Positions 9,838-61,009 of a stretch of 64,000 nucleotides of DNA are shown in pieces. The notes under the pieces are model-generated. The model saw nothing but the letters and a program-made list of their open reading frames with translations, was not told where the DNA came from and did no database searches. Numbering within the stretch: position 1 is the stretch's first letter; every line of letters begins with the position of its first letter. The stretch covers positions 310,001 through 374,000 of the forward strand of contig NZ_JAFCAR010000004.1 in NCBI RefSeq assembly GCF_016820245.1. The letters run 5' to 3'. This DNA is from Jannaschia sp. Os4. GTDB taxonomy: Bacteria > Pseudomonadota > Alphaproteobacteria > Rhodobacterales > Rhodobacteraceae. Both the position numbers and the translations under genes were made by a program.

Positions 9838-9838
9838 G

Positions 9839-10381
9839 TCAGCTTCCGTTTCCTCGGGCGCCTTCCACGAGGGGCTCGTAGGTTTCGCGGTCGGGGCATT
9901 CGCGGCCCACGGGCGTGCCGGAATAGTCCCGGTCGCCGCATTCGTTCAGCTCGTGCCACGCCCAGCCGCGCCCGTCCGAGCCCAGCGCGACCACGCGGTC
10001 CACGCCGAAGGCCACGTCCTGGTAGGCGAGGAAGGTCTTGGCCTCGCCCACCTCGATCAGCGCGCCGATGGCGTCGGCGTCGAAGCACTCGAACCACGCG
10101 GGGGCGACGGTGGGCGCGCCCTCGGGCGGCTCCAGCCCCTCCAGCGTGGAGAGGTCCTCCGAGTGGCCGAAGCAGGCGCGGAAGCCCAGCGGCGAGGAGA
10201 CGGAGCGGATGGCCGACACCCCGCCCGCGTCGATGGCGCGGGGGCCGTCGGGCGTCACGAGGGTGAGCGTGACCGGCCCCTCGACCGGCTCCCAGAAGGC
10301 GCGCTGCTGGGTGTACCAGATGCCCCAGCCGCCCGCGACGCAGGCGGCGAGGATCAGCAGGATGGCGACCTTGCCCTTCAT
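9839..10381 (-). CDS. Membrane-anchored protein between glyQ and glyS (DUF6446-like)
   Basis: 180 residues with one N-terminal hydrophobic helix (AILLILAACVAGGWGIWY) that acts as an uncleaved anchor or signal, followed by a soluble periplasmic domain with four cysteines (ACFGHSE, FECFDAD, NECGDRD, RECPDRE) that could form two disulfides. Rhodobacterales commonly carry such a protein between the two glycyl-tRNA synthetase genes; from memory it matches DUF6446. Function unknown. Its stop is one base from the glyS ATG, so the two are probably co-translated. Confidence 0.75.
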   Translation of the reverse strand: MKGKVAILLILAACVAGGWGIWYTQQRAFWEPVEGPVTLTLVTPDGPRAIDAGGVSAIRSVSSPLGFRACFGHSEDLSTLEGLEPPEGAPTVAPAWFECFDADAIGALIEVGEAKTFLAYQDVAFGVDRVVALGSDGRGWAWHELNECGDRDYSGTPVGRECPDRETYEPLVEGARGNGS

Positions 10382-10514
10382 TGGCGCCGTCTCCGGCGGA
10401 TCGGCGCCACGCCGCTCGCGCGCCCGGCCCGGTGCGCGGTCGCGCAGCGGCCGCAGGGCCAGCGGCGGACCGTCCCACGGGCCGGCGCTCCCGCGACGTC
10501 GGTGCGCCGGTTCA

Positions 10515-13555: not shown

Positions 13556-15007
13556 TCAGGCCCGCCAGAACCGCGACGTGAACAGCACGAACACGACCAT
13601 CAGCTCCAGCCGCCCGACGAGCATCGCCGCGATCAGGATCCACTTCGCCGCGTCCCCCAGCGGCGCGAAGTTGCCCGTGGGGCCGATGATCGGCCCCAGC
13701 CCCGGCCCGATGTTGGCCAGCGCCGCCGCCGCGCCGGAGACCGACGTGGTGAAGTCGAGCCCCGTGAGCGCCAGCGCCACGGCCGTCACGCCCAGCGAGA
13801 TCAGGAACAGCACGAAGAACGCCATCACCGAGGCGAGCACGTCCTCGGAGACCGGGCGCCTGCCGTAGCGGGGGCGGAACACCCCATGGGGCGAGTGGAT
13901 GCGGCGCACCTGCGCCGCGACGGCGGCGAGCAGGATCTGGTAGCGGAACACCTTGACCGAGCACGAGGTCGATCCCGCGCAGCCGCCGACGAGCCCCGCG
14001 AAGAAGATCGCCGCCACGAGGACGGGCGACCACGCGCCGTAGTTGGCCGAGGCGTAGCCCGTGCCGGTCAGGATCGAGGTGAAGTTGAACGCGGCCTCGC
14101 GCAGGGCCCGCTCGGGGTCGTGCCCGTGGGAGAGGACGAGCACGACCACCGCCGACGCCACGAGCACCGCGAGCGTCCCCAGCAGGCCGCGGACCTGCGG
14201 GTCGCGCAGGAGGGGGCGCCCCCGCCCGTTGGCGATGAGGTCGACGTAGAGGACGAAGGGCAGCGCGGCGGCGATCATGAAGACCGTGGCGATGTACTCG
14301 TGGGCGCCCCTGTAGGCGCCGAAGCTCGCGTCGGTGTTGGCGAAGCCGCCCGTGGACACCGTGGTCATCGCGTGGACCACGGCGTCGAGCGCGTCCATCC
14401 CCGCCGCCCCGTAGGCCAGCGCGCAGACCACGGTGAGGCCGAAGTAGACGCCGCTGATCTGCTGCGCGATCTCGGCGGCGCGGGGCAGCACCTTGCCCAT
14501 CGTGTCGAACCCCTCCGAGCGGAAGATCTGCATGCCGCCGACGCGCAGTTCCGGCAGGAACACCATCGCCACGACGATGATCCCGATGCCGCCGAACCAC
14601 TGCAGCATCCCCCGCCACAGCAGCAGCCCGTCGGGGAGCGAGCCGAGCCCCGTGAGCACGGTCGATCCGGTCGTGGTGAGGCCCGACATCGCCTCGAACA
14701 CGGCGTCGGTGGCGTCCGCCCCGGTGGCGCCCATCAGGAACGGCAGCGCGGCGAAGAGCGGCAGCACCGCCCACACGCCCGTCGTCAGGAGGAAGGTCTG
14801 CTGCAGCGTCAGCCGCTCCCCCACACCGTTGGCGCAGGCGATGGCGGTCGCCCCGCCGACCAGCGCCGTCAGCCCCGCCGCGGAGGCGAAGGCGGGCCAG
14901 TGCCCGTTCCCCGCCGCGATGTCCGCCGCCGCCGGGACGATCATGGAGACGGCGAGGATCAGCACGAGCCAGCCGATCACGTAGCCCACGGGGCGCAGGT
15001 CGATCAT
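13556..15007 (-). CDS. trkH: TrkH/KtrB-family potassium uptake channel subunit
   Basis: Inner-membrane K+ translocating subunit. About 483 residues with four pore-loop repeats recognisable by their filter segments: SGLTTTGSTV, TTVSTGGFAN, SILTGTGYAS and AALANIGPGLGP. These carry the filter glycines, followed by conserved hydrophobic helices. The start MIDLRPVGYVIGW is preferred over two in-frame upstream starts because it begins at the first membrane helix. No trkA or trkI-like partner lies next to it, so the NAD-binding regulatory subunit must be encoded elsewhere. Confidence 0.93.
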   Translation of the reverse strand: MIDLRPVGYVIGWLVLILAVSMIVPAAADIAAGNGHWPAFASAAGLTALVGGATAIACANGVGERLTLQQTFLLTTGVWAVLPLFAALPFLMGATGADATDAVFEAMSGLTTTGSTVLTGLGSLPDGLLLWRGMLQWFGGIGIIVVAMVFLPELRVGGMQIFRSEGFDTMGKVLPRAAEIAQQISGVYFGLTVVCALAYGAAGMDALDAVVHAMTTVSTGGFANTDASFGAYRGAHEYIATVFMIAAALPFVLYVDLIANGRGRPLLRDPQVRGLLGTLAVLVASAVVVLVLSHGHDPERALREAAFNFTSILTGTGYASANYGAWSPVLVAAIFFAGLVGGCAGSTSCSVKVFRYQILLAAVAAQVRRIHSPHGVFRPRYGRRPVSEDVLASVMAFFVLFLISLGVTAVALALTGLDFTTSVSGAAAALANIGPGLGPIIGPTGNFAPLGDAAKWILIAAMLVGRLELMVVFVLFTSRFWRA

Positions 15008-15123
15008 GGCGCGACGCATCCCGGCGGGGGCCGGGGGTGTCAAGCGGCGGCCTCGCCTTGACGCCGGAACGCCGCGCGTCCATCTGCCCGCTCCTGTCCC
15101 CTCCCCGACCCCCGAGGCTTTCC

Positions 15124-15918
15124 ATGCAAGGCAGCGCGAACCTGAACGTGATGATCCGCGCCGCGCGCAAGGCCGGCCGGTCGCTGGTCAAGGATTTCGG
15201 CGAGGTCGAGAACCTCCAGGTCGCGCGCAAGGGGCCGGGCGACTTCGTCACCCGCGCCGACCGCCGGGCCGAGGAGATCCTGCGCGAGGCGCTGATGGAG
15301 GCGCGTCCGAACTACGGCTGGCTCGGCGAGGAGACGGGCGCCTCGGAGGGCAAGGACCCGACGCGGCGCTGGATCGTGGACCCGCTCGACGGGACCACGA
15401 ACTTCCTGCACGGGATGCCCCACTGGGCCGTCTCGGTGGCGCTGGAGCACAAGGGCGAGATCGTCGCTGGCGTGGTGCACGACCCGGTCAAGGCCGAGAC
15501 CTTCTACGCCGAGAAGGGCGCGGGCGCGTGGCTGGGCGACAACCACAGGCTGCGGGTCTCGGGGCGCACCCGCCTGATCGAGACGGTCCACGCGACCGGG
15601 ATCCCGTGGGCGTCCTCGCCCTACCTGCCGGCCTCCCTGCAGGACCTCGCCCGGCTGATGCCCGCCTGCGCGGGCGTGCGGCGCTGGGGGGCGGCGTCGC
15701 TGGACCTCGCCTACGTCGCGGCGGGCCGGTTCGACGGCTACTGGGAGCGGGGGCTGAAGCCGTGGGACATCGCGGCGGGCATCGTCATCGTCCGCGAGGC
15801 GGGCGGCCTCGTCGAGCCGATCCGGTCGGCGCAGTCGCTCTTGGAGGACGGCCACATTGTGGCGGCCTCCGCCAATATCTTCGACCCCTTCGCCAAGATT
15901 GTTCGCGAAAGACCCTGA
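15124..15918 (+). CDS. suhB: Inositol monophosphatase family protein (SuhB-like)
   Basis: 264 residues. Mg2+-dependent phosphatase fold: GDFVTRADRRAEE, WLGEETG, the metal-binding motif WIVDPLDGTTNFLHGMP, and the C-terminal motif YWERGLKPWDIAAGIVIVREAGG. Typically hydrolyses inositol or sugar phosphates; in some bacteria SuhB also affects rRNA antitermination. The MQGSANLNVMIRAARKAG start matches the family. It stands divergent from trkH. Confidence 0.93.
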   Translation: MQGSANLNVMIRAARKAGRSLVKDFGEVENLQVARKGPGDFVTRADRRAEEILREALMEARPNYGWLGEETGASEGKDPTRRWIVDPLDGTTNFLHGMPHWAVSVALEHKGEIVAGVVHDPVKAETFYAEKGAGAWLGDNHRLRVSGRTRLIETVHATGIPWASSPYLPASLQDLARLMPACAGVRRWGAASLDLAYVAAGRFDGYWERGLKPWDIAAGIVIVREAGGLVEPIRSAQSLLEDGHIVAASANIFDPFAKIVRERP

Positions 15919-15972
15919 AGGCGCCCTAGTCGCGCCCATCCTGTGGTTGACGTATTGGTCAACCAGCGAGGG

Positions 15973-16194
15973 ATGTCGATCGTGCGACGCTTTTTGACCG
16001 GAGATCATGGGGGGGCCACCGTCGAGTGGGTCGTGCTCACCGTCCTCGTCGTCGCCGGCGTGACGTACATGTTCGACCCGGTGGCCCAAGAGGTGCAGGC
16101 GATCGCGATGCGGATCGAGCGGACGCTCACGGACCTCCGGATCCCGACGACCTTCGCCGCGATGAAGGACTTCGCCGCGCGCGGCACGTTCTGA
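15973..16194 (+). CDS. Small prepilin-like membrane peptide
   Basis: 73 residues. MSIVRRFLTGDHGGATVEWVV has a basic leader, then Gly followed by GATVE, with Glu at position +5 after a potential prepilin-peptidase cut, then a hydrophobic helix (VVLTVLVVAGVTYMF). This resembles Flp/TadE-type pilin-like peptides. It has a good ribosome site (GCGAGGG). An 8-bp inverted repeat (15944-15951 with 15958-15965) lies just upstream. No tad genes are nearby, so its role is unknown. Confidence 0.65.
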   Translation: MSIVRRFLTGDHGGATVEWVVLTVLVVAGVTYMFDPVAQEVQAIAMRIERTLTDLRIPTTFAAMKDFAARGTF

Positions 16195-16250
16195 ACGCGA
16201 ACGGCGCGCGTTAACGTCTCCTTCGGATTCGCCGCGTAGCCTCGCGGGCG

Positions 16251-18179
16251 ATGCGCGTCCTCCCGCCCCTTCCCGCCCTCCCCTCCGCCGCAGGCTGGCG
16301 CCGCGCCCTGTCGGGGATCGACTGGCCGATGGCGTTCCCCGCGCTGGCGCTCGGCGCACTCGCCTGCGGGTGGCCCGCGGCGGCGATGGCGCTGGGGGCG
16401 GTGCTGCCGCTCTGGCTCGCGTTCGGGAGGCGGCCGCGCCACGCGCGCGCGGTCGCGCGCGGCGCGCCGCTGGAGGCCGTCCTCGAGGACGCGCTCGCGC
16501 GGGCGGACCGGGCGGGGCGGACGACGGCGCTGCTCCTGTTCCGCGTCGATCCCGGACCGGTCGCGGGGGCGGACATGCTGGCCTTGGCCCTTGCGCGGGC
16601 CCGCGGCGCCCTGCGCGGGGCGGACACGCTCATGGCGCACGGTCCGGACGGGTTCGCCGTCGTGCTGGACCCGATCCCGGCGGGCGGCGGCGTCGCGGCC
16701 CGCGTCGCGGACCGCGTGCAGGCCGCGCTGCGCGAGCCGGTCGCGGCCGGACCGTGGCCGGCGCGCGTCGGCGCCCACGCAGGCGTCTGCGCGCCGGCCC
16801 GCGCCACCGACGTCACCCCCGCTTCCATGCTCGCGGTGGCCGAATCGGCGCTGGGCCGCGCGGCCCGCGCCGGTCCGGGGGCCGTCGTGTCGCGGACCGG
16901 CGACCGGCCCGATCCGACGGAGGACGGCCCCGGCCTCCCCCGCGACCTCGCCGCCGCCTTGGACGCGGACGAGGTGGAGGCGTGGTTCCAGCCGATCCTG
17001 TCCCTGGAGGACGGATCGGTCCGGGGGGTCGAGACGCTCGTGCGGTGGCGCCACCCGGATCACGGGCTCGTCCCCCCGCCCCGGATCCTCTCCGCGGCCG
17101 GCGAGGCGGGGCTCGCCCCCCGCTTCGCCATCGCGATGGTCGAGCGGGCGATCTCCGCCCTCCGCGACTGGGACCGGGCCGGCCTCGCCGTGCCGGTCGT
17201 CTCGGTGAACCTGTCGCAGGAGGAGCTGCGCGATCCCGGCCTTGCCCGGACGATCCTCGACCGGCTCGGCGACGCCGGGGTGCCGCCGGACCGCCTCGTC
17301 GTCGAGATCCTCGAGACCGTCGTCGCGGAGGCGGGCGACGATGCGGCGATGGCGAACCTGCGCCGGCTCGCGCGGGCCGGCGTGCGGCTCGACCTCGACG
17401 ACTTCGGGATCACGGCCGGGTGCATCGCGAACGTGACGCGGTTCGGGGTCCACCGCCTGAAGATCGACCGGACCCTCGTGACCGGCCTCGGCGCGGACCC
17501 CGACCGCAACAGGATGGTCGCCGCGATCCTGCGCTTGGCGGACGCTCTGGGGGTCGGGGTCGTCGCGGAGGGCGTCGAGACGGCGGTGGACGCGGAGGCT
17601 CTGCGCGCGCTCGGCTGCACCACCGCGCAGGGCTACGCCCTCTGCCGCCCCGCCCCGGCGGACGACCTCGCCGAATGGCTGCGCCGCCGCGCCCGCCACG
17701 GAAGCGCGCGCCCCTGCCTGCCGCCGGGAGAGGGCGTGCCGCCGCCGGCCCCGGGGATGGAGACGGTTCCGGCCGCGCCGCTCGTGGGCGCGGGAGGGCG
17801 CATCGAGGGCACTGCCGCTAAAGGAGGGCGCGTGCGGGTATCGGTCGTGGACCTTCCCGACGTCGCCTCCGCTGCGGCGCCGCCGATCAGACCCTGCGAA
17901 ACGGGCTGCAGCGCGTCCTCACTCGACCCCGCCGGGGTGCGGGAGGCCCGCGCCTGCACCCATGCCGGCTCCACCCCCGCGCGTCGCCCGACCGGGGGCG
18001 GGCATCGCGACGGCATCCAGCCAACCCCTGTGCAGCGCACGGAGACGGGCGCCGCCCTTCCCGCGGCATTAGGCGAGGCCGTGGAGGGGGGCGAGCACGC
18101 GGCGCGATGCGGCCTTGGCGATCCGGTGATCCCGTCGCGCCGTCCCGACGCGCGGGCGGGCCGGTCGCTGTCCGGCTAG
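16251..18179 (+). CDS. Membrane-anchored degenerate GGDEF-EAL protein (probable c-di-GMP phosphodiesterase)
   Basis: 642 residues. Two hydrophobic helices at about 28-58, a degenerate GGDEF domain (the active site reads GPDGF at 131-135), then an EAL domain at about 230-470. EAL catalytic positions are kept: Glu261 in ETLVRW, Asn320 (VNLSQEE), Glu352, DLDDFG (381-386), Lys404 (LKIDR), Glu440 (VVAEGVET) and Gln460. It should therefore hydrolyse c-di-GMP while the GGDEF half senses or is silent. Residues about 485-642 form a Pro/Gly/Arg-rich low-complexity tail without homology that I recognise; it may be real or a fortuitous open extension. Confidence 0.8.
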   Translation: MRVLPPLPALPSAAGWRRALSGIDWPMAFPALALGALACGWPAAAMALGAVLPLWLAFGRRPRHARAVARGAPLEAVLEDALARADRAGRTTALLLFRVDPGPVAGADMLALALARARGALRGADTLMAHGPDGFAVVLDPIPAGGGVAARVADRVQAALREPVAAGPWPARVGAHAGVCAPARATDVTPASMLAVAESALGRAARAGPGAVVSRTGDRPDPTEDGPGLPRDLAAALDADEVEAWFQPILSLEDGSVRGVETLVRWRHPDHGLVPPPRILSAAGEAGLAPRFAIAMVERAISALRDWDRAGLAVPVVSVNLSQEELRDPGLARTILDRLGDAGVPPDRLVVEILETVVAEAGDDAAMANLRRLARAGVRLDLDDFGITAGCIANVTRFGVHRLKIDRTLVTGLGADPDRNRMVAAILRLADALGVGVVAEGVETAVDAEALRALGCTTAQGYALCRPAPADDLAEWLRRRARHGSARPCLPPGEGVPPPAPGMETVPAAPLVGAGGRIEGTAAKGGRVRVSVVDLPDVASAAAPPIRPCETGCSASSLDPAGVREARACTHAGSTPARRPTGGGHRDGIQPTPVQRTETGAALPAALGEAVEGGEHAARCGLGDPVIPSRRPDARAGRSLSG

Positions 18180-18368
18180 GCCGGCCGCCGCCATGCCCCG
18201 CCGGAGGCCCCTCCATGCGGGGCGGGCGCCGCTTCGGGCCGACAGGCCGATGGCGGGCGGCCCGGAGGCTGGAGGGGCCGTCGGAGGACGCGCGGACGCG
18301 GCCCTTGACCTCCCACGCCCCCGGCTGTTGAAGGCAGGCGCTTTTCCAACACCGCCGGGGTCCGCCGC

Positions 18369-20384
18369 ATGGACGAACAGAACCGCAACCTGATCCTTGC
18401 GATGGTCCTGTCGGGCCTCGTGATGCTCGTCTGGTTCGTCCTCTTCCCGCCGGAGCAGCAGGCCCCCACCGTGGCGGAGGTGCCCACGGCCGACGGCGTG
18501 CCCGCGCCCAACGCGCCGGGGGCGGCCGTGCCGCCCGGCGCCGCGGCCCCGGGCGCGCCCGCGACCGCCGCCACCGGCGACGCGCTGCTGCCCGGCGCGT
18601 CGCGCGACGCGGCGCTCTCCGCCTCGGCGCGGGTGGAGATCGAGACGCCCCGCCTGACGGGCTCGCTCTCGCTCACGGGCGGGCGGATCGACGACCTCGC
18701 GCTCAAGGACTACCGCGAGACCCTCGACGCCGACTCCCCCATCGTCACGCTGCTCACGCCCGCGGGCGCGGCGGGCGCCTACTACGCGCTGCACGGCTGG
18801 GTGCCCGGCGGCGGCCTCGGGGCGGACGCGGTGCCCGGCCCGTCGACCCCATGGGAGGTGGCGGCGGGCGACGTGCTGGCCCCCGGCGCGCCGGTCGTCC
18901 TGCGCTGGGACAACGGCGCCGGCCTCACCTTCGAGCGCGAGATCTCCGTGGACGACGAGTTCATGTTCACGGTCGAGCAGCGCGTCGCCAACGCGACCGG
19001 CGCGCCGGTCAGCCTCGCTCCCTACGGCGTCGTGGCCCGACACGGGCGGCCCGACACGGTGGACTTCTTCATCCTCCACGAGGGCGTGGTGGCCAAGACC
19101 GACGGCACCTTGGAGGAGATCGACTACGACGACGTGGCCGACCTCGACGCGGTGGCTGCCGAGGGGGGGCGGGTCGAGTTGCTCGACGTGACGGAGAGCG
19201 GCTGGATCGGGTTCACCGACAAATACTGGATGACCACCCTCATCCCCGACCGCGACGTGCCGTTCACCGCCGTGGCCAAGTACGTGGACGGCGCGGACGT
19301 CTACCAGACCGAGACCCGCCTGCCCGCGATGACCATCGCCGCGGGCGCGACCGCCGCCTCGTCCCAGCGCCTCTTCGCCGGGGCGAAGGAGTGGGAGGTC
19401 ATCCGCGACTACGAGGCGGGGCGGACGCTGAACGGGTTCGGCGACCACTTCCTCTACACGTTCGGCCTCGTCGACGAGGGCGCGACGGCGGTGGACCGCT
19501 TCGTCGACAGCATCGACTGGGGCTGGTTCTACTTCCTCACCAAGCCGATCTTCATGATGCTGCACGGTCTGGAGGACGTGATCGGCAACATGGGCGTGTC
19601 GATCATCGTGCTGACGCTGATCATCAAGGCGCTGCTGCTGCCCCTGGCCTACAAGTCCTACGTCTCGATGGCGCGGATGAAGGAGCTCCAGCCCGAGATG
19701 GAGAAGCTGAAGGAGAAGGCGGGCGACGACCGCCAGAAGCTCCAGCAGGGGATGATGGCGCTCTACCGGGACAACAAGGTGAACCCCGCCGCCGGGTGCC
19801 TGCCGATCCTGCTGCAGATCCCGATCTTCTTCTCGCTCTACAAGGTGATCTTCGTCACGATCGACCTGCGCCACGCGCCGTTCTTCGGCCCGTTCCAAGA
19901 CCTCTCGGCGCCGGACCCGACCTCGATCCTGAACCTGTTCGGCCTGCTGCCCTTCGGCGCGCCGGAGCCGGGCACGATCCTCGCTCTAGTGTTCATCGGC
20001 ATCCTGCCGATCCTGCTGGGCGTGTCGATGTACCTGCAGCAGAAGCTGAACCCCGCGCCGACGGACCCGACGCAGGCGATGATCTTCGCGTGGCTGCCGT
20101 GGGTGTTCATGTTCATGCTGGGCGGGTTCGCGTCGGGCCTCGTGGTCTACTGGATTGCGAACAACACGATCACCTTCATCCAGCAGTACTCGATCATGCG
20201 CTCGCAGGGCATGAAGCCCGACCTCTTGGGCAACATCCGCGGCACGACCAAGCCGGTCGCGCCGGTGTCGAAGGAGAAGGCCGCGAACGCGCCCGAGGCC
20301 CCCAAGGCCGAGGGCGAGGCGCCGCCGCCCGCCAACCGGCCCGGCCCCTCGCCCAAGAAGCGCAAGCCCCGGAGCAAGCGGTGA
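18369..20384 (+). CDS. yidC: Membrane protein insertase YidC
   Basis: Inserts and folds inner-membrane proteins alone or with SecYEG. 671 residues. N-terminal helix (LILAMVLSGLVMLVWFVLF), an Ala/Pro linker, a large periplasmic domain (about 85-370), then the conserved five-helix core starting FYFLTKPIFMMLHGLEDVIG, with ARMKELQPEMEKLKEK and GCLPILLQIPIFFSLYKV. The C-terminal tail is basic (KKRKPRSKR), as in alphaproteobacteria. Heads the yidC-MOSC-engB-argB cluster. rpmH, rnpA and yidD, which often precede yidC, are not found upstream here. Confidence 0.98.
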   Translation: MDEQNRNLILAMVLSGLVMLVWFVLFPPEQQAPTVAEVPTADGVPAPNAPGAAVPPGAAAPGAPATAATGDALLPGASRDAALSASARVEIETPRLTGSLSLTGGRIDDLALKDYRETLDADSPIVTLLTPAGAAGAYYALHGWVPGGGLGADAVPGPSTPWEVAAGDVLAPGAPVVLRWDNGAGLTFEREISVDDEFMFTVEQRVANATGAPVSLAPYGVVARHGRPDTVDFFILHEGVVAKTDGTLEEIDYDDVADLDAVAAEGGRVELLDVTESGWIGFTDKYWMTTLIPDRDVPFTAVAKYVDGADVYQTETRLPAMTIAAGATAASSQRLFAGAKEWEVIRDYEAGRTLNGFGDHFLYTFGLVDEGATAVDRFVDSIDWGWFYFLTKPIFMMLHGLEDVIGNMGVSIIVLTLIIKALLLPLAYKSYVSMARMKELQPEMEKLKEKAGDDRQKLQQGMMALYRDNKVNPAAGCLPILLQIPIFFSLYKVIFVTIDLRHAPFFGPFQDLSAPDPTSILNLFGLLPFGAPEPGTILALVFIGILPILLGVSMYLQQKLNPAPTDPTQAMIFAWLPWVFMFMLGGFASGLVVYWIANNTITFIQQYSIMRSQGMKPDLLGNIRGTTKPVAPVSKEKAANAPEAPKAEGEAPPPANRPGPSPKKRKPRSKR

Positions 20385-53533: not shown

Positions 53534-53608
<75 letters not shown>

Positions 53609-53652
53609 CATCTCCCCCGCCCGAGCGATCCCCGCCGCCGCCCGCCCTCGGG

Positions 53653-54264
53653 TCAGGGCGCCGTCAGGCCCCGCGCCGGCATGAAGTACGCGAGCGCGTC
53701 CGCGCGCCCGACGAGGCCGAACTTCGCGCAGGCCCGCCGCTTGTAGGTCTCGGCGGACTTGGGCGAGATGCCGATCTCCGCGCCGATGCGCTTGAAGGAA
53801 TGCCCGAGGACGTAGAGCCGGATCACCGCGCGCTCGCGCGCGCTGAGGATCGGCACCGGGCGGCCGCCGGGCAGCAGCAGCGACGCCAAGGCCTCGCGCA
53901 GGCCGACCGGCGCGCCCGCGGCCCAGTCGACGGCGCAGCGCACCGCGCGGCGCGCCTCGACCAAGGGGAACCGGTCCGTGCCCGGGCGCACGAGCACGAC
54001 GTCGATGTCGCGCGAGTCGAGCACCTCCGCCCCGTCGAGCACGGGATCGGGCAGCACCGTCGCGTCCACGATCACGACGTCCCCCACCTTGGCGGCGGCG
54101 GACAGGGCGACGGGACAGGTGCTGGTGATGGATGGGGCGTTCGCCGCCGACGTGACGGCCGCCGCGATGGCGTCGACGCGGGCATCAGAGGCGAGGACGT
54201 GCGTGGTGGACGGATGGGACGTCCAGAGTGTCGCCTCGACGGAGGCGATGTCAGTATCTTTCAT
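53653..54264 (-). CDS. LuxR-type transcription regulator next to the repeat-protein locus
   Basis: 203 residues. C-terminal LuxR/GerE helix-turn-helix at about 140-196 (LSARERAVIRLYVLGHSFKRI, GAEIGISPKSAETYKRRA). The N-terminal 130 residues show a weak alternating strand/helix pattern (VVIVDATVLPDP, DIDVVLVRPG) that could be a degenerate receiver-like domain, as in CsgD. It is divergent from the 644-residue repeat protein across a 487-bp gap, so it is the obvious candidate for controlling that gene. Confidence 0.8.
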   Translation of the reverse strand: MKDTDIASVEATLWTSHPSTTHVLASDARVDAIAAAVTSAANAPSITSTCPVALSAAAKVGDVVIVDATVLPDPVLDGAEVLDSRDIDVVLVRPGTDRFPLVEARRAVRCAVDWAAGAPVGLREALASLLLPGGRPVPILSARERAVIRLYVLGHSFKRIGAEIGISPKSAETYKRRACAKFGLVGRADALAYFMPARGLTAP

Positions 54265-54751
54265 GGAATCAACCCTCGAAACTACGTACCGTAACCACCG
54301 CCCCGAAATACGAGCGGCGAGAACCGGCGGTCGGGAACAGCCCCGACTCGCTCACGGTCCACACGTTAACCCGTTGTTAAGGCCTTGCGTGCAAAATCTT
54401 GCCGAGGTTGTGCCGGAACACGACTATTCCGCCTTTGCACGAACGCATACGCGCGTCCCGCGGACTCGACCCCGCTGAAAACGCGTCGTTTTTCTGTCTA
54501 GCCGTCATCTTGTACGCCAGCGGGTAGGCAATTCTCTGACTTCTTCGGAATGCGGCAAACGTGTGACCGATGTGTGGCCAAACGACGCTTGGGGATCCGT
54601 CGTGGCGCTGCGCAGACCGGGTCGTACCGCACCCGCACCGTCGCCTCGAAGCCTCCACTCGTCCCGGCCCGGCCGATGCTCCGCCTTGCGGACCCGACCG
54701 GACGTGAACCGCTCCAGCCCCTTTTCGGGCGACCAACAGGACGAGAAAATC
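54265..54751. promoter_or_regulatory. 487-bp divergent control region of the repeat-protein locus
   Basis: No gene seen. The first 280 bp are clearly more AT-rich than the genome (AACCCGTTGTTAA, TGTACGCC, TTTTTCTGTCTAG), which suits promoters. It holds a 6-bp palindrome AAAACG-CGT-CGTTTT (54478-54492). The remaining 190 bp or so before the ATG are GC-rich and would form a long leader. Likely contains promoters for both divergent genes and LuxR-protein sites; no exact site can be named. Confidence 0.5.
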
Positions 54752-56686
54752 ATGAGCAAATTCCTTACCACAACCGCGATCGCGTCGCTGCTGGCCGTTC
54801 CGGCGATGGCCGACGACACGGACATCGACCAGACCGTCGCCGCGCTGCAGACGGCCCTGAACTCCATCCTCATCAACTTCGACGGCGACAACGTGACCCA
54901 AGCGGCCACGAACGCCGCGAACCTGATCTCCTACGACACGGACGACCTGGACGACGTGAACCAGACGGCCGGCCCGCTCGGCCAGATCGGCGTCAACAGC
55001 CTGATCACCACCGGCGGCCCCAGCGGCGCGTTCACGAACGTCGATCAGGACGCGACCAACGTCGTCAACTCGATCGCGGCGCTCGAGCTGGAAGACCTGA
55101 CGCAGTCGGTCGCCGGCGCGGTCCAGTCCGGCACGAACGACATCCAAGCCGCGACCGGCGTGTCCAGCTTCGACCAGGACGCGATCAACGCCGCCAACCT
55201 CGCCAACATCGACGGCTCGGAGGAGGACGTCACCCAGACCTTCTACTTCTCGGCGCAGGACGCGACGAACAGCATCGACACCGGCGGCGACATCGCCTCG
55301 GGCGCGCAGGACGCGACCAACGTGGTCAACAGCCTCACGGCCGTGAACAACGTCGGCGACGACCTGTATCAGGACGTGTGGGTCGCGACGCAGTCGGCGA
55401 GCAACGACCTCGACGCCACGGGCAACGTCTCGAACTTCGGCCAGACCGCCGTGAACGCCGCGAACCTCGCGGACGTGGACGGGATCGACGACGACGTCAC
55501 CCAGTGGTTCGACGCCTCCAGCCAGACCGCGTCGAATAACGCCTTCGCCTTCTTCGGTGACGTCACCGAAGGCTCGCAGGCGGCGACCAACGTGGCCAAC
55601 AGCCTGACCTTCGGCGGCGACGTCGGCGACAACCTGAACCAGTGGAACGACGGCGGCGTGCAGACGGCGACGAACTCCATGGACGGCGTGCTCAACGTCG
55701 CCAACGTGAGCCAGGACGCGGTCAACGCGGCCAACATCGCGTCGATCCAGTCCGTCGGCGGCAACATCGACCAGGACATGGGCGTCTTCGGCGATGCGTC
55801 GCAGACGGCGACCAACGACATCCTGCTGGTCGCCGGCGCGGCCTCCGAGCTCAGCCAGAACGCGACCAACGTGGGCAACAGCCTGTCGGGCGCTGGTGCC
55901 GGCCTCGAGATCGAGACGGCGCAGCAGGACTTCGTCGACACCGACCAGATCGCGTCGAACTCGATCGCCGGGTCGCCGATCGGCAACCCGAACCAGGATG
56001 TCAGCGTGACGTCGGCCTCCAACCTCGCGCAGTCCGCGGTCAACGCCGCGAACCTCGCCGAGCTGCAGGACATCAACGTCAACCTGACCCAGACGTTCGA
56101 GGATAGCGGCCAGCTCGCCGTGAACTCCATCGACGACGTCGATCCGGGCTCGGGCGGCATCTCGGAGCTGTCGCAGGCGGCCACCAACGTCGCCAACTCG
56201 GCCACGCTGGACGACGTCGAGGCGACGGCCACGCTGGTGCAGACCGCCGAGATGGACGTCTTCGACCTCGAGGGCCAAGCGGCGCTCAACTTCATCGCCT
56301 TCGGCGAGGACGGGGTGTCCAACGTGAGCCAGGCCGCCACCAACGCGGTGAACCTCGCGACCCTCGACGAACTGCGCGGCACGCTCTCGCAGACCGTCAC
56401 GGACGGGGCGCAGGTCGCCGGGAACCTGGTGAACTACTCCGGCTTCATCGGGGATGGCATCAACGGCCTCGACAGCGCGGGCCTCGTCTCCGGGCTGGAC
56501 CAGTCGGCCGTCAACGCCGCGAACCTGGTGACGGTGAACTCGCTGCCCGACATCTCCGGGTCGATCGAGGTCACGCAGTCCTACACCGGCTTCCAAGTCG
56601 CCGGGAACGGCCTCTACGACGCGGACAACATCTCCAGCGTCGCGCAGGCCGCCACCAACGTGGCCAACTCGATCAGCAACCCCTGA
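54752..56686 (+). CDS. Secreted Gln/Asn-repeat protein, 13 tandem units (curli-like, HfaD-related)
   Basis: 644 residues, signal peptide to about 20 (LLAVPAMAD). The mature protein is nearly all repeats of about 47 residues, 13 copies. Each unit has two similar half-strands: one Q-x-A-x-N-x-x-N (as in SQAATNVANS), one Q-x-A-x-N-x-I (as in AQDATNSID), joined by Asp/Gly-rich turns. Very acidic, no Cys. This Q/N spacing is that of beta-solenoid amyloids such as curlin, though the unit is longer. It probably is exported by the CsgG/HfaB pore encoded nearby and forms a surface fibre or adhesin. AGGACGAG precedes the ATG. Confidence 0.75.
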   Translation: MSKFLTTTAIASLLAVPAMADDTDIDQTVAALQTALNSILINFDGDNVTQAATNAANLISYDTDDLDDVNQTAGPLGQIGVNSLITTGGPSGAFTNVDQDATNVVNSIAALELEDLTQSVAGAVQSGTNDIQAATGVSSFDQDAINAANLANIDGSEEDVTQTFYFSAQDATNSIDTGGDIASGAQDATNVVNSLTAVNNVGDDLYQDVWVATQSASNDLDATGNVSNFGQTAVNAANLADVDGIDDDVTQWFDASSQTASNNAFAFFGDVTEGSQAATNVANSLTFGGDVGDNLNQWNDGGVQTATNSMDGVLNVANVSQDAVNAANIASIQSVGGNIDQDMGVFGDASQTATNDILLVAGAASELSQNATNVGNSLSGAGAGLEIETAQQDFVDTDQIASNSIAGSPIGNPNQDVSVTSASNLAQSAVNAANLAELQDINVNLTQTFEDSGQLAVNSIDDVDPGSGGISELSQAATNVANSATLDDVEATATLVQTAEMDVFDLEGQAALNFIAFGEDGVSNVSQAATNAVNLATLDELRGTLSQTVTDGAQVAGNLVNYSGFIGDGINGLDSAGLVSGLDQSAVNAANLVTVNSLPDISGSIEVTQSYTGFQVAGNGLYDADNISSVAQAATNVANSISNP

Positions 56687-56694
56687 TCGAACGC

Positions 56695-56722
56695 GGAAGG
56701 GGCGGCCTCGGCCGCCCCTTCC
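56695..56722 (+). terminator. Hairpin terminator between the two repeat-protein genes
   Basis: Perfect inverted repeat 56695-56707 with 56710-56722; as folded, about 12 pairs with a CTCG loop, followed by CCCCAATTTTCC. It begins nine bases after the stop of the 644-residue gene and ends 45 bp before the next start. Confidence 0.8.
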
Positions 56723-56767
56723 CCCCAATTTTCCTTACATTCCATTCTCTTCGTTCGGACCCCAACC

Positions 56768-57868
56768 ATGCGGCATCTGCTCATAGCCATCGCCCTCGTC
56801 GGCACGGCGGCATCCGCAGCGGCGGACGAGCCGGCCCCGACGACCGGGATCACCACCACCCAGACCTTCGACGGGATGCAGGACGGATCGAACTTCGTGA
56901 CGATCAACGGACTGCCGGGACGCTTCCTGAACGACGATCGGACGCAGTCCGACCTCGCCACCCTCCCTCCCCTCGACGACACGTTCGATCGCCAGCGCGG
57001 CGCCACCATCGATCAGTCGGTCCTCAACGCGGCCAACATCCTGCTGAGCTCGGCCACCACGGTCTCCCTCGCCCAGCAGGTGAACGTCGGCACCCAGCGC
57101 GCCGAGAACGGCGTCACCCTGTTCCACGCGCCCGGATCCAGCGCCACGGTCCGCCAGACCGGCGAGAACCTGACCAACATCATCGTCGCGGACCAGGTGA
57201 ACGAGATCGAGCAGGCCTTCGGCCCCGGCGCGGCCCAGCTCGTCGACAACGCGGCGACCCTGCGCGGCGGCTTCACCGAGGTCGACCAGACCGGGCGCAA
57301 CACCGCCAACGTGGTCGTGGCCGACATCTCGATCGGCGGCGGCGCGCAGATCTTCCCCGAGGACACCGTCCAGGACGTCCGCAACGTGGCGCGGTTCGTC
57401 GACACCGGCGCACGGGGCCGCGTCTCCCAGCAGGGCACGAACATCGGCAACGTGCTCGTGGCCGACGAGGTGCAGAACGTGACGCGGGTGTTCGAAGGCG
57501 ACCAGATCGTCCGCAACATGGTCGAGACCGGGGGCGGGCCGCGCCCGTCGCGGATCTCCCAGTCGGGCCTCAACATCGCGAACTTCGTCGCGGCCTCGCG
57601 GATCGTGAACCTCTCGCAGGTCTCCGGGGGGCGCCAGATCGTCGAGAACACCGTGGACGGGAAGACGCTCGCCGAGCTCGACGACCGGCGCGGCGTCAGC
57701 CAGTCCTCCACGAACATCGTGAACCTGCTGCACGTCACCCGCCCGAACCCGGGCGGCGGGGGCGACTTCCTCCGGGCGGAGCAGACCGCCCTGCAGCCCC
57801 AGTCGGCCACCGGCGGCGGCGGCGGGCGGCACACCCAGATCGGCAACGCGGCGATGATCGACCGCTGA
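56768..57868 (+). CDS. Secreted repeat protein, HfaD-like
   Basis: 366 residues, signal peptide (LLIAIALVGTAASAAAD). About six repeats of about 45 residues carry the strand I/V-x-Q-x-G-x-N-x-x-N-x-x-V-A-D (VRQTGENLTNIIVADQ, VDQTGRNTANVVVAD, VSQQGTNIGNVLVAD, ISQSGLNIANFVAA). Same layout as the 644-residue protein but distinct sequence, so the two are distant paralogues. HfaD of Caulobacter is a secreted holdfast anchor made with HfaA and HfaB; context supports that role here. No clear ribosome site precedes the ATG. Confidence 0.65.
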   Translation: MRHLLIAIALVGTAASAAADEPAPTTGITTTQTFDGMQDGSNFVTINGLPGRFLNDDRTQSDLATLPPLDDTFDRQRGATIDQSVLNAANILLSSATTVSLAQQVNVGTQRAENGVTLFHAPGSSATVRQTGENLTNIIVADQVNEIEQAFGPGAAQLVDNAATLRGGFTEVDQTGRNTANVVVADISIGGGAQIFPEDTVQDVRNVARFVDTGARGRVSQQGTNIGNVLVADEVQNVTRVFEGDQIVRNMVETGGGPRPSRISQSGLNIANFVAASRIVNLSQVSGGRQIVENTVDGKTLAELDDRRGVSQSSTNIVNLLHVTRPNPGGGGDFLRAEQTALQPQSATGGGGGRHTQIGNAAMIDR

Positions 57869-57885
57869 CCCGGGCCGACGGGACA

Positions 57886-57915
57886 CGCGCCGCCCGGTCG
57901 AGGCCGGGCGGCGCG
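57886..57915. terminator. Bidirectional terminator between convergent repeat and hfa genes
   Basis: Perfect 12-bp stem (57886-57897 with 57904-57915), loop TCGAGG, between two convergent stop codons. No long T-tract. Confidence 0.75.
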
Positions 57916-57922
57916 ATGCGTT

Positions 57923-58357
57923 CTAGAACGTCAGTTCGGAGCAGGACGCGCTCGCGCACCACGGGCCGGCGCTGATGCGGGGCGCCGAGGGCCACTCGGC
58001 CCCCTTGTTCACCTCGTAGTCGGCGGCCCAGCGCCCGTAGTTCAACGCGCTCTGGGTGAGCCGGTCCTGGCAGATCGACGCGCTCTGGGAGCGGACGAGG
58101 CGGCGGGTGATCCGCGCGAGGGCCCCGTCGGTGCCCGTGGGCTCGACCTGCCCCAAGGCCGCGAAGAACCCGCTGATCGCTTGGCTGTCCGCCAAGGGCG
58201 AGCCGGGCAGCACGCTCTCGCAGGTGCGCGCGATGGAGCGGTAGCGGACCATCGCCTCGAGGAATCCGGTCGGGTCGTAGCCCGTGCCCTGCTGCGCGGA
58301 GACGGCGCCGGGGCCGACGGCCGCGACGGCGGCGGCGAGGCAGAGGCGCCGGATCAC
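57923..58357 (-). CDS. Secreted protein of unknown function in the hfaAB operon
   Basis: 144 residues. Signal peptide (LCLAAAVAAVGPGAVSAQ). Mature part helical with four cysteines (ARTCESVLPG, SICQDRL, PWCASASCSELTF), so probably two disulfides, ending in a Cys-rich tail. No homologue recognised. Its ATG overlaps the hfaB stop (ATGA), so it is made with HfaA and HfaB. It could be a chaperone or accessory factor of the export system, by position comparable to CsgE/CsgF or HfaD/HfaC, but without visible similarity to them. Confidence 0.65.
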   Translation of the reverse strand: MIRRLCLAAAVAAVGPGAVSAQQGTGYDPTGFLEAMVRYRSIARTCESVLPGSPLADSQAISGFFAALGQVEPTGTDGALARITRRLVRSQSASICQDRLTQSALNYGRWAADYEVNKGAEWPSAPRISAGPWCASASCSELTF

Positions 58358-59259
58358 GTGGGCTCTGGCGGCAGGACCACCACCTCCGCGTCGGCCACGA
58401 CCGCGGGCGCGGTCGCGGGGGCGGCCCCGAGCCCCGGCGGCAGCAGCGCGTCGCAGCTGCCGTCGTGGCCCGTCACCTCGGCGACGATGTCGTAGGCGGC
58501 CTCGGCCAGCATCCAGCGGACGCCCGCGTGCAGCCCCTCGAGGTTCTCGCGCCCGACGTTCACGTCGAACAGCTCGTCGTCGAAGAAGCGGAAGACCGAG
58601 CCATAGAGCTCGCGGCCGACGGCCTGCTTGCTGTAGGCCTGCGCGAGCACGAGCTCGGTCGAGACCGTGTCGGTGACGCGGATGTCCGCCCCCACGGTCA
58701 GCGCGAAGGAGCGCCGCCCGCCACCCAAGCCGAACAGGGCGACCTCGCCCCCCTCGGAGAAGGTGTTGAAGTCGAGCTGCGTGATGGCCCCGTCGATCAC
58801 GACGTCCGAGCCGCGCATCGCCCCCCGCTCGAGCGGACGATACTGGATCGCCTCGCCTTCGACGACGGTGGTGCCGCCGTCGCCGAGGATCTGCTCGCGG
58901 GCGCGGGCGATCTCGAACTCGGACACGGTGGTGTTGACGCGGTTCACCTGCTTGATGCCCGCGCGGGACAGCGCGGTGACCATCATGCCGGCCACGTCGC
59001 GGGGCACGAAGCCGCCCGCCTCGTCGACGGCGATCTTCTGGGTGAGGTCCGCGATGGCGTGCACGGCGAAGACGGTGTCGTCGCGCGCAACGGCCCGGCT
59101 ATTGGACAGGCATTCGAGCGCGGCGTCCGCCGGGGTCGCGGTGACGACGGGGATGGGGCCGACGAGGGCCGCGCGGGGCGCGCCCTGCGGGGCCGGGAGG
59201 GAGCCGCACCCGGCGAGGGCGGCGGCGGAGACGGAGGCGAGGACGAGCGCGCGCATCAC
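58354..59259 (-). CDS. hfaB: CsgG/HfaB-family outer-membrane secretion lipoprotein
   Basis: 301 residues. Lipoprotein signal peptide with lipobox ALAGC (Cys18). CsgG-type features: VARDDTVFAVHAIADLTQKI, FVPRDVAGMMVTALSRAGIKQVNR, VVEGEAIQYRPLERGAMRGSD, DVVIDGAITQLDF, and SVFRFFDDELFDVNVGREN near the end. CsgG forms the nonameric outer-membrane pore for curlin; HfaB does the same for the Caulobacter holdfast anchor. The Pro/Ala tail (after about 275) is extra. Overlaps hfaA by four bases (ATGA). Confidence 0.88.
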   Translation of the reverse strand: MMRALVLASVSAAALAGCGSLPAPQGAPRAALVGPIPVVTATPADAALECLSNSRAVARDDTVFAVHAIADLTQKIAVDEAGGFVPRDVAGMMVTALSRAGIKQVNRVNTTVSEFEIARAREQILGDGGTTVVEGEAIQYRPLERGAMRGSDVVIDGAITQLDFNTFSEGGEVALFGLGGGRRSFALTVGADIRVTDTVSTELVLAQAYSKQAVGRELYGSVFRFFDDELFDVNVGRENLEGLHAGVRWMLAEAAYDIVAEVTGHDGSCDALLPPGLGAAPATAPAVVADAEVVVLPPEPT

Positions 59260-59660
59260 GGCAGCGCCTTCAGCGCGGCCGCGGCGGCCGGGACGCTTCC
59301 GCCCGTTCCGGTGCCCGCGTCCGCGGACCCGCCGAGGGAGTTCTGGCTGCCGCCCTCCGCGTCCTGGATCGACTGGTCGCCGCTGTTGTCCTGCGACAGG
59401 TCGATCGTGTTGCCGCTCCCGCCGATGTCGATGACCACGGTGTTGCCCGTCTGCCCCCCGAGGCCCGGGGCGGCGGAGGTGCTCTGCTCGAACACCATGT
59501 AATTCAGGCGCGTCTGCTCCCCTTGCAGGAGAATCTGACGGTCGGACGGCGAGCGGAACTGCCAGCCGCGCTGTTCTCCGAGACCGTTCGCGGCGACCGG
59601 TCCGGCGGCGAGGAGGCTAGCGAGGCCCAGCGGGATGCTGAAGCGTGCGAGGAGGGACAT
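59256..59660 (-). CDS. hfaA: HfaA-like small secreted fibre subunit
   Basis: 134 residues. Signal peptide (LGLASLLAAGPVAANG), then a segment resembling the HfaA N-terminus (RSPSDRQILLQGEQTRLNYM) and one or two curlin-like Gly/Asn/Gln strands (GQTGNTVVIDIGGSGNTIDL, SQDNSGDQSIQDAEGGSQNS). HfaA in Caulobacter is amyloid-like and anchors the holdfast polysaccharide. First gene of an hfaA-hfaB-unknown operon. GAGGAGGGAC is a strong ribosome site. The match is by pattern and context. Confidence 0.65.
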   Translation of the reverse strand: MSLLARFSIPLGLASLLAAGPVAANGLGEQRGWQFRSPSDRQILLQGEQTRLNYMVFEQSTSAAPGLGGQTGNTVVIDIGGSGNTIDLSQDNSGDQSIQDAEGGSQNSLGGSADAGTGTGGSVPAAAAALKALP

Positions 59661-59992: not shown

Positions 59993-61009
59993 GTGATCGC
60001 GCCCAACTTCAAGCGGCGGCTGTCGGGCGTGACCTCGACGATCGCGCGGCTCGTCCCCCTGCAGGCGCGGGACATCGCGATCGCCGCGACGGGGCCGGGC
60101 CTTCCCCCCGACATCCCCCACGTCCCCCTGTCCCGCGTCCTGACGATGTCGCGGCGCGGCCCGTCCGGCCCGCGCGTCTGGCACGCCCGGCGCAACGTGG
60201 AGATGATCGGCGGGCTGGCGCTCCGCGCCCTGGGCAAGGACCTGCGGCTCCTCTTCACCTCCGCGTCGCAGCGCCACCATTCCGGCCTGACCAAGGCGCT
60301 CATCCGGCGGATGGACGCAGTGGTCGCCACGTCGGCGAAGACGGCGGGCTACCTCGACCGGGAGGCGACGGTGATCCTTCACGGGATCGACGCGGCGGCC
60401 TTCGCGCCGCCTCCGGACCGGTCCGCGCTCCGGGCGCGGCTCGGGCTCCCGGACGGAACCCTCGTCGGCTGCTACGGGCGCATCCGCGAGTCGAAGGGTA
60501 CCGATCTCTTCGTGGACGCGATGGTGCCGCTGCTGCGCGACCGCCCGGAGGCGTCGGCGGTGGTGATGGGCCGCGCGGTCGAGAAGCACGCCGCGTGGGA
60601 GCGCGACCTGCGCGCGCGGGTGCCGGCGGACGTGGCGGCCCGTGTGCTGTTCAAGCCGGAGGTGCCGGTGACGGAGATGGCGGCGTGGTACGGCGCGCTG
60701 GACCTCTACGTCGCGCCGCAGCGTTGGGAGGGGTTCGGCCTGACCCCGCTGGAGGCGATGGCCTGCGGCGTCCCGGTCGTGGCGACCGACGTGGGCGCGT
60801 TCTCGGAGCTGCTGTCGCCGGAGAGCGGGGTGATCGTGCCGCCCGGCGAGGCGGGCGCGCTCGGGGGCGCGATCGCCCCCCTGCTCGACGACGCGGACCG
60901 GCGCGGGGCGATGGGGGCCGCGGCGCGGGCCCGCGTGGAGGCGCGCTTCCGGCTCGAGGACGAGGCCGCCGCCCTGATCGCGGTCTACCGCTCGCTGATT
61001 GGGTCGTAG
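59993..61009 (+). CDS. GT4-family glycosyltransferase
   Basis: 338 residues. Two Rossmann halves; the C-terminal GT-B signature is clear: VGCYGRIRESKGTDLFVDAM, PQRWEGFGLTPLEAMACGVPVVATDVGAFSEL with the EGFGLTPLEA nucleotide-sugar Glu motif. N-terminus PNFKRRLSGVTSTIARLVP is typical of a roseobacter LPS/capsule glycosyltransferase group. GTG start has GGAGG five bases upstream. Overlaps the convergent FAD gene by 25 bp. It could decorate a surface polysaccharide, but no link to the hfa genes is shown beyond proximity. Confidence 0.85.
   Translation: MIAPNFKRRLSGVTSTIARLVPLQARDIAIAATGPGLPPDIPHVPLSRVLTMSRRGPSGPRVWHARRNVEMIGGLALRALGKDLRLLFTSASQRHHSGLTKALIRRMDAVVATSAKTAGYLDREATVILHGIDAAAFAPPPDRSALRARLGLPDGTLVGCYGRIRESKGTDLFVDAMVPLLRDRPEASAVVMGRAVEKHAAWERDLRARVPADVAARVLFKPEVPVTEMAAWYGALDLYVAPQRWEGFGLTPLEAMACGVPVVATDVGAFSELLSPESGVIVPPGEAGALGGAIAPLLDDADRRGAMGAAARARVEARFRLEDEAAALIAVYRSLIGS

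Follow-up and report, generated by a model that had tools for sequence, protein, structure and literature searches.

A gene module around an HfaB-type outer-membrane pore, with two paralogous repeat proteins, in Jannaschia sp. Os4

Gene set and layout of the locus

The window analyzed here is a stretch of 64,000 nucleotides from Jannaschia sp. Os4 (genome size 3.54 Mb), part of contig C4 (NZ_JAFCAR010000004.1, positions 310,001 to 374,000). Between window positions 53653 and 59660 lie six genes, which an earlier note made from the sequence alone had assigned to a single holdfast-anchor or curli-like fibre system. All six open reading frames (ORFs) were found to be open, at the coordinates given in that note, and the codon-position composition of the genes was coding-like.

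A LuxR/FixJ-type regulator is encoded on the minus strand (53653..54264) and is transcribed divergently from the gene referred to here as big (54752..56686, plus strand), whose product is a secreted repeat protein of 644 aa. The 487 bp between the two genes (54265..54751) presumably contain the promoters of both. The start of big was placed at ATG 54752, and not at the earlier GTG of the listed ORF, because the signal peptide read from this ATG is kept in relatives. Downstream lies mid (56768..57868, plus strand), encoding a second secreted repeat protein of 366 aa.

The remaining three genes are on the minus strand: unk (57923..58357), encoding a secreted protein of 144 aa; the pore gene (58354..59259), encoding a lipoprotein of 301 aa; and the gene of a small secreted subunit of 134 aa (59256..59660). 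The pore gene overlaps with the small-subunit gene by 4 bases, and with unk likewise by 4 bases.

Properties of the pore and its partners

The pore was matched by the Pfam CsgG model with 36.3 bits (gathering cut-off 20.8) and by the NCBIfam HfaB model with 144.4 bits (E 3.5e-42), and its sequence also found structures of E. coli CsgG at E values of about 1e-4. A lipobox, LAGC, is located at its N-terminus, with C18 invariant in all four aligned rows; pore sequences from Rhizobiaceae carry the variant LAAC. Judged by its sequence, the protein is, as the earlier note had held, a pore lipoprotein of the CsgG/HfaB family; its acylation is predicted.

Its assignment to the holdfast anchor, in contrast, was not upheld, as the HfaB score is under half of the equivalog cut-off of 300 and the pore falls outside the holdfast clade. 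Fifty pores were placed in a quick maximum-likelihood tree, supported by SH-aLRT (Shimodaira-Hasegawa-like approximate likelihood-ratio test) values only and with 14 of its 47 inner branches open. In it, the 14 pores of the module type formed one group (99% support). The 12 pores above the HfaB cut-off formed a separate group, also with 99%, and true CsgG was far from the module pores. One pore with an internal stop (L060) and other fetched pores were left out of this tree. HfaB exceeded the cut-off in 15 of 289 genomes of the class, and genomes above it were taken as holdfast bearers because the neighbours match the HfaA model and Caulobacter appeared in the control search.

The small subunit was aligned in 14 rows, two of them nearly identical. 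Residues N25, G26, F35, R36, Q42, L44, L45, E48, T50, R51 and L52 were common to all rows; the conserved N-terminal segment carries NG and then QFR or DFR. The C-terminal unit of every row follows the pattern Q-T-G-N-x3-I-x3-G-x2-N-x5-Q-x3-G-x-Q-x-I (spacing as in the window). The core motif of curlin is N-x5-Q (PMC10192328), and the NTIDLSQ of the window protein fits it.

In profile comparison, the mature small subunit and a set of HfaA proteins gave 70% over 29 columns (score 32.8), confined to the C-terminal unit; the best of 60 shuffles scored 20.5 and the reversed control 12.7. The N-terminal 18 residues, for their part, matched the products of the genes immediately upstream of three further HfaB-type pores (93%, with a score of 47.1 against 21.0 for the best of 60 shuffles and 22.6 for the reversed control), while the HfaA set showed no match to those three proteins (0.6%). 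This conserved segment could be a piece that docks at the pore. The NCBIfam HfaA model NF037934, which detected four of four controls, did not match any window protein at E values up to 1. The description of the subunit as HfaA-like is weakly supported, by the one curlin-type unit in common.

The N-terminus of E. coli CsgF resembles that of the small subunit, with QFR.P followed by LL. A homology to CsgF was rejected nonetheless: QFR was missing from three alphaproteobacterial CsgF proteins, and profile comparison gave 0.3% (0.7% with signal peptides). The likeness is kept as a resemblance only. In CsgF, Phe24, Phe26 and Phe31 contact CsgG (PMC7304575, PMC10133297). Among solved structures, a sequence search for relatives of the small subunit returned three chance-level matches, the best with E 0.21.

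The repeats of big were evident at the level of the QxAxN half-unit, which occurs 26 times, whereas 100 shuffles had 2.3 on average and never more than 5. Paired by eye, the half-units give 13 units of about 45 residues each, in agreement with the earlier count. The cruder test of plain identity autocorrelation was barely above shuffles (0.144 vs. 0.141 for big, 0.160 vs. 0.146 for mid), and no DNA-level tandem repeats were found. Across species, the number of half-units ranged from 8 to 31 in big (approximately 4 to 15 units) and from 11 to 13 in mid, the length of which is constant. The lowest counts for big came from a short ORF in L044 (8) and from one of two ORFs in L045 (9), all others being 12 to 31. 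In L044 (6039-6716) big is very short, with 225 aa; in L045 (5398-6710) it is divided between two ORFs.

Despite this difference in length, mid and big are paralogous (hhalign 99.0%). The rows of L044 and L045 were left out of the big profile. Gln or Asn occupied 36 of the 63 invariant columns in 13 mid sequences, compared to 15% in the window mid as a whole (binomial p 3e-14, columns being treated as independent). The AlphaFold model of mid was mostly beta (predicted local distance difference test score, pLDDT, 83.6; predicted template modelling score, pTM, 0.84); all structure predictions were made without the rows of L018. In a second-look alignment its fold neighbours were beta-solenoids, namely SufD (12.4), CsgA 8c50 (12.2; root-mean-square deviation 8.4) and EtpA (12.0), with others tied, and plain Foldseek returned nothing at E <= 0.001. 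Because the solenoid neighbours tie and plain Foldseek gives nothing, the model points to a solenoid and not to a curli fibre. The protein mid is accordingly predicted to be a beta-solenoid with Gln/Asn ladders, and big is presumed to be the main fibre or adhesin subunit.

The label HfaD-like, previously given to mid, found no support because mid is related to big and not detectably to the HfaD set. The NCBIfam HfaD model NF037936 matched neither mid nor big at E values up to 1, although one of its two controls also failed (366 and 17 bits, cut-off 100). Against a set of four HfaD proteins, two of which were picked by position alone, profile comparison gave 1.1% for mid and 0.3% for big.

The protein unk contains four cysteines that were invariant in 13 of 13 rows, and its model was all-alpha (pLDDT 88.2). 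No convincing relative was found among solved structures, by fold or by sequence. Its profile matched only its own genome among 289 genomes of the class, apparently the same sample as that searched for HfaB, as the listed genome handles coincide. HfaE is described in PMC6372794 as having a predicted signal peptide and no homology to known families, and as occurring in many stalked bacteria. An identity of unk with HfaE, compared by description only, is unlikely given the restriction of the unk profile to one genome of the 289.

In the regulator, Pfam identified a GerE helix-turn-helix (HTH) domain at residues 139-192, while the N-terminal part of about 130 aa had no Pfam match, receiver domains included. 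Among five Rhodobacterales regulators, aligned without the short one of L037, the HTH was strongly and the N-terminal part weakly conserved, with D67 invariant in a VD.. context. The N-terminal part could, on this pattern, be a degenerate receiver. A shared operator between the regulator and big was sought and rejected: the best 9-mer occurred in three of six sequences and was equalled in 5 of 50 shuffles.

Occurrence of the module in other genomes

Two peptide patterns taken from the pore were run in one scan against 84,980 species genomes and yielded 12 loci. Four belong to Rhodobacterales (Hasllibacter halocynthiae, J. helgolandensis, Loktanella salsilacus and a Sulfitobacter; pore identity 67-77%) and eight to Rhizobiaceae, Rhizobium rosettiformans included (57-61%). 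In all 12, the small subunit, unk, mid and big each had a relative near the pore. The association is beyond chance because the five structural genes co-occur in every locus found by the pore alone, which bears out the idea of a single system for these five, the protein of 144 residues with no known function among them. The synteny search in Rhodobacterales that had been proposed thus recovered the module in four loci, and a further congener (G491) contained all six genes. The pore gene of G491 (L118:9177-10077) is in two overlapping frames; its other module genes are open.

Gene order differed between the two groups. In Rhodobacterales the small subunit and the pore come first, unk is next, mid and big follow in convergent orientation, and the divergent regulator closes the row. 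All eight Rhizobiaceae loci begin with big and mid, after which come unk, convergent to them, and finally the small subunit and the pore. The regulator was divergent from big in six of six Rhodobacterales genomes, the Hasllibacter copy having only 139 aa. In the Rhizobiaceae loci no relative of it was found within the fetched flanks, which reach approximately 7.5 to 9 kb to either side of the pore. The LuxR-type regulator was found only in the version of the module present in Rhodobacterales.

Occurrence was patchy. In the family, a pore match (E <= 0.001) was obtained in 14 of 198 genomes, only three of which, the own genome included, had at least 68% identity. In the GTDB genus, to which J. 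helgolandensis also belongs, four of 20 genomes had a match, three of them of the module type; the congener G488 has its pore at a contig and coordinates identical to those in G509, the genome with the J. helgolandensis locus L038. The genus around R. rosettiformans carried the pore in 11 of 60 genomes, all 56-60% identical and one with an internal stop; four of these were known from the large scan. Among 72,556 plasmids, pore matches were found in nine records, and the two of module type were both from L. salsilacus. Horizontal spread would be the simplest reading of this distribution.

On the L. salsilacus plasmids (L018 and L019, 512 and 598 kb) the module lies at approximately 14200-18759 and is directly followed by polysaccharide export, tyrosine autokinase and glycosyltransferase genes. 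In Sulfitobacter CW3 (L040:8965-13916), third-position G+C of the module genes compared was 0.40-0.57, against 0.61-0.70 in upstream ORFs; downstream ORFs were also low (0.51-0.63). A conserved insertion site was considered and rejected: in G488 and G491, two congeners that carry the module, the murA-like gene and the glycosyltransferase that flank the window's copy have their relatives elsewhere. That glycosyltransferase, the only one beside the window's copy, lies at 59993-61009. A tRNA-Thr gene (53536-53610) lies 42 bp off the end of the regulator, and tRNA genes are a common kind of insertion site. None of the literature matches listed, judged by title, described the module, most subscription papers being outside the coverage.

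Interpretation and comparison with known systems

The likely reading of these data is a self-contained system for secretion and assembly of beta-solenoid surface fibres on an HfaB-type outer-membrane pore. In terms of sequence, the module is a relative of the Caulobacter holdfast-anchor set and not a member of it, and the compact gene set probably exports long ladder-like proteins through the pore and assembles them on the cell surface.

The pore, with which four partners bearing signal peptides are co-inherited, would export these partners in an unfolded state. The small subunit would dock at the pore by its conserved N-terminal segment, its single curlin-type unit offering a starting edge. 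The fixed length of mid suggests a base or nucleator, and the variable big may form the fibre or adhesive body, stacked through Gln/Asn ladders. The protein unk could take the role of CsgE or CsgH as a periplasmic, disulphide-bonded gate or chaperone. Where the divergent LuxR-type protein is present, in Rhodobacterales, it may turn the system on in the manner of CsgD, which switches curli on. The product would function in attachment to surfaces or in adhesion between cells.

Compared with HfaA-HfaB-HfaD (with HfaE) of Caulobacter, the module likewise has an HfaB-family pore directly downstream of a small subunit that ends in a curlin-type unit, a further secreted repeat protein and an alphaproteobacterial host. 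It differs in the separate clade of its pore, in the failure of the HfaA and HfaD models, in having two paralogous Gln/Asn-ladder proteins in place of HfaD, and in the helical unk, to which Rhodobacterales add the regulator. The module is indeed a different version, as the earlier note had stated.

With curli (CsgA/B/C/D/E/F/G, and CsgH in Alphaproteobacteria) it shares a CsgG-family pore and predicted Gln/Asn-ladder beta-solenoid subunits, one of them variable in length. The LuxR-family regulator divergent from a subunit gene likewise recalls the layout of csgD and csgBA. In contrast, the pore is far from CsgG in the tree, and the half-unit shared by big and mid, QxAxN, is distinct from N-x5-Q, the motif of curlin. 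Curlin_rpt had no match among the locus proteins (Pfam) or in the own genome (E up to 1). CsgF was likewise not found in the own genome, and a Pfam scan of the locus proteins gave no CsgE match, no genome-wide search for CsgE having been made.

More tentatively, the module might represent a third nucleation and secretion system of the CsgG family, beside curli and the holdfast anchor. Its product would be a polysaccharide-independent fibre, with big as a variable Gln/Asn-ladder solenoid, mid as a base of fixed length, a docking subunit with a single curlin unit and unk in place of CsgE, CsgF and CsgH, the whole having spread between Rhodobacterales and Rhizobiaceae. If true, the role of HfaB-type pores extends beyond anchoring the holdfast, and partners for fibre formation exist in the CsgG family in several independent sets. 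The module, small in size, comes with natural length variants of big in cultured species, and the helical unk could help to test what takes the place of CsgE and CsgF, a point that PMC3521004 raises for Alphaproteobacteria.

An alternative considered unlikely is a true holdfast-type anchor, in which a polar polysaccharide adhesin (holdfast or unipolar polysaccharide, UPP) is tethered at the outer membrane by the secreted repeat proteins, in the way that HfaA, HfaB and HfaD anchor the holdfast in Caulobacter (PMC6707917). On sequence grounds such an anchoring role is possible: the pore belongs to the HfaB family, the small subunit has the HfaA-type C-terminal unit, and the L. salsilacus module adjoins the polysaccharide genes described above. 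The carriers include R. rosettiformans, placed in the genus Peteryoungia, where P. aggregata was named for its frequent rosettes (PMC9558580); such rosette formers fit a role in adhesion. Two Poly_export genes in the own genome, both off the contig of the window, say little. However, the pore lies outside the holdfast clade and far under the equivalog cut-off, the HfaA and HfaD models miss and no relation to HfaD was detectable. Moreover, the flanking ORFs vary by lineage, with a polysaccharide cluster adjoining the module only in L. salsilacus (the other flanks judged by eye, without a family search, and no search of the genomes for holdfast synthesis genes having been made).

It is similarly improbable that big and mid are non-fibrous adhesins, that is, single secreted beta-solenoids which stay at the surface unpolymerised and are only exported by the pore. 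The curlin-type unit that the small subunit has in common with HfaA argues for assembly, and the combination of a variable big with a constant mid resembles a fibre and its base. A decaying or neutral island, functionless now in its own genome, is very improbable: the patchy occurrence (module-type pore in 3 of 20 genus genomes), the pore gene in two frames in L118 and the divided big of L045 would fit it, but every window gene is open and coding-like and the motif residues are kept across two orders.

The fibre-assembly system proposed here is not the only setting of an HfaB-type pore. Such pores were also found on a Variovorax plasmid (L020), in G236 and G363, and on Vibrio and Photobacterium plasmids (L022 and L021). 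In the first three, the upstream secreted protein shares the N-terminal segment of the small subunit. Unlike in the module, no relatives of unk, mid or big were found among the ORFs of these loci.

On the plasmids of Photobacterium (L021) and Vibrio alginolyticus (L022), the HfaB-type pore genes at approximately 8900-10500 are followed by hypothetical proteins. One V. alginolyticus protein starts with WEWN after its signal peptide and contains repeated ATAV.NN, a pattern also seen beside HfaB-like genes of class members such as L093. In G212, a member of the class, five HfaB-like pore genes (loci L072 and L094-L096) were located on a single contig, C1.
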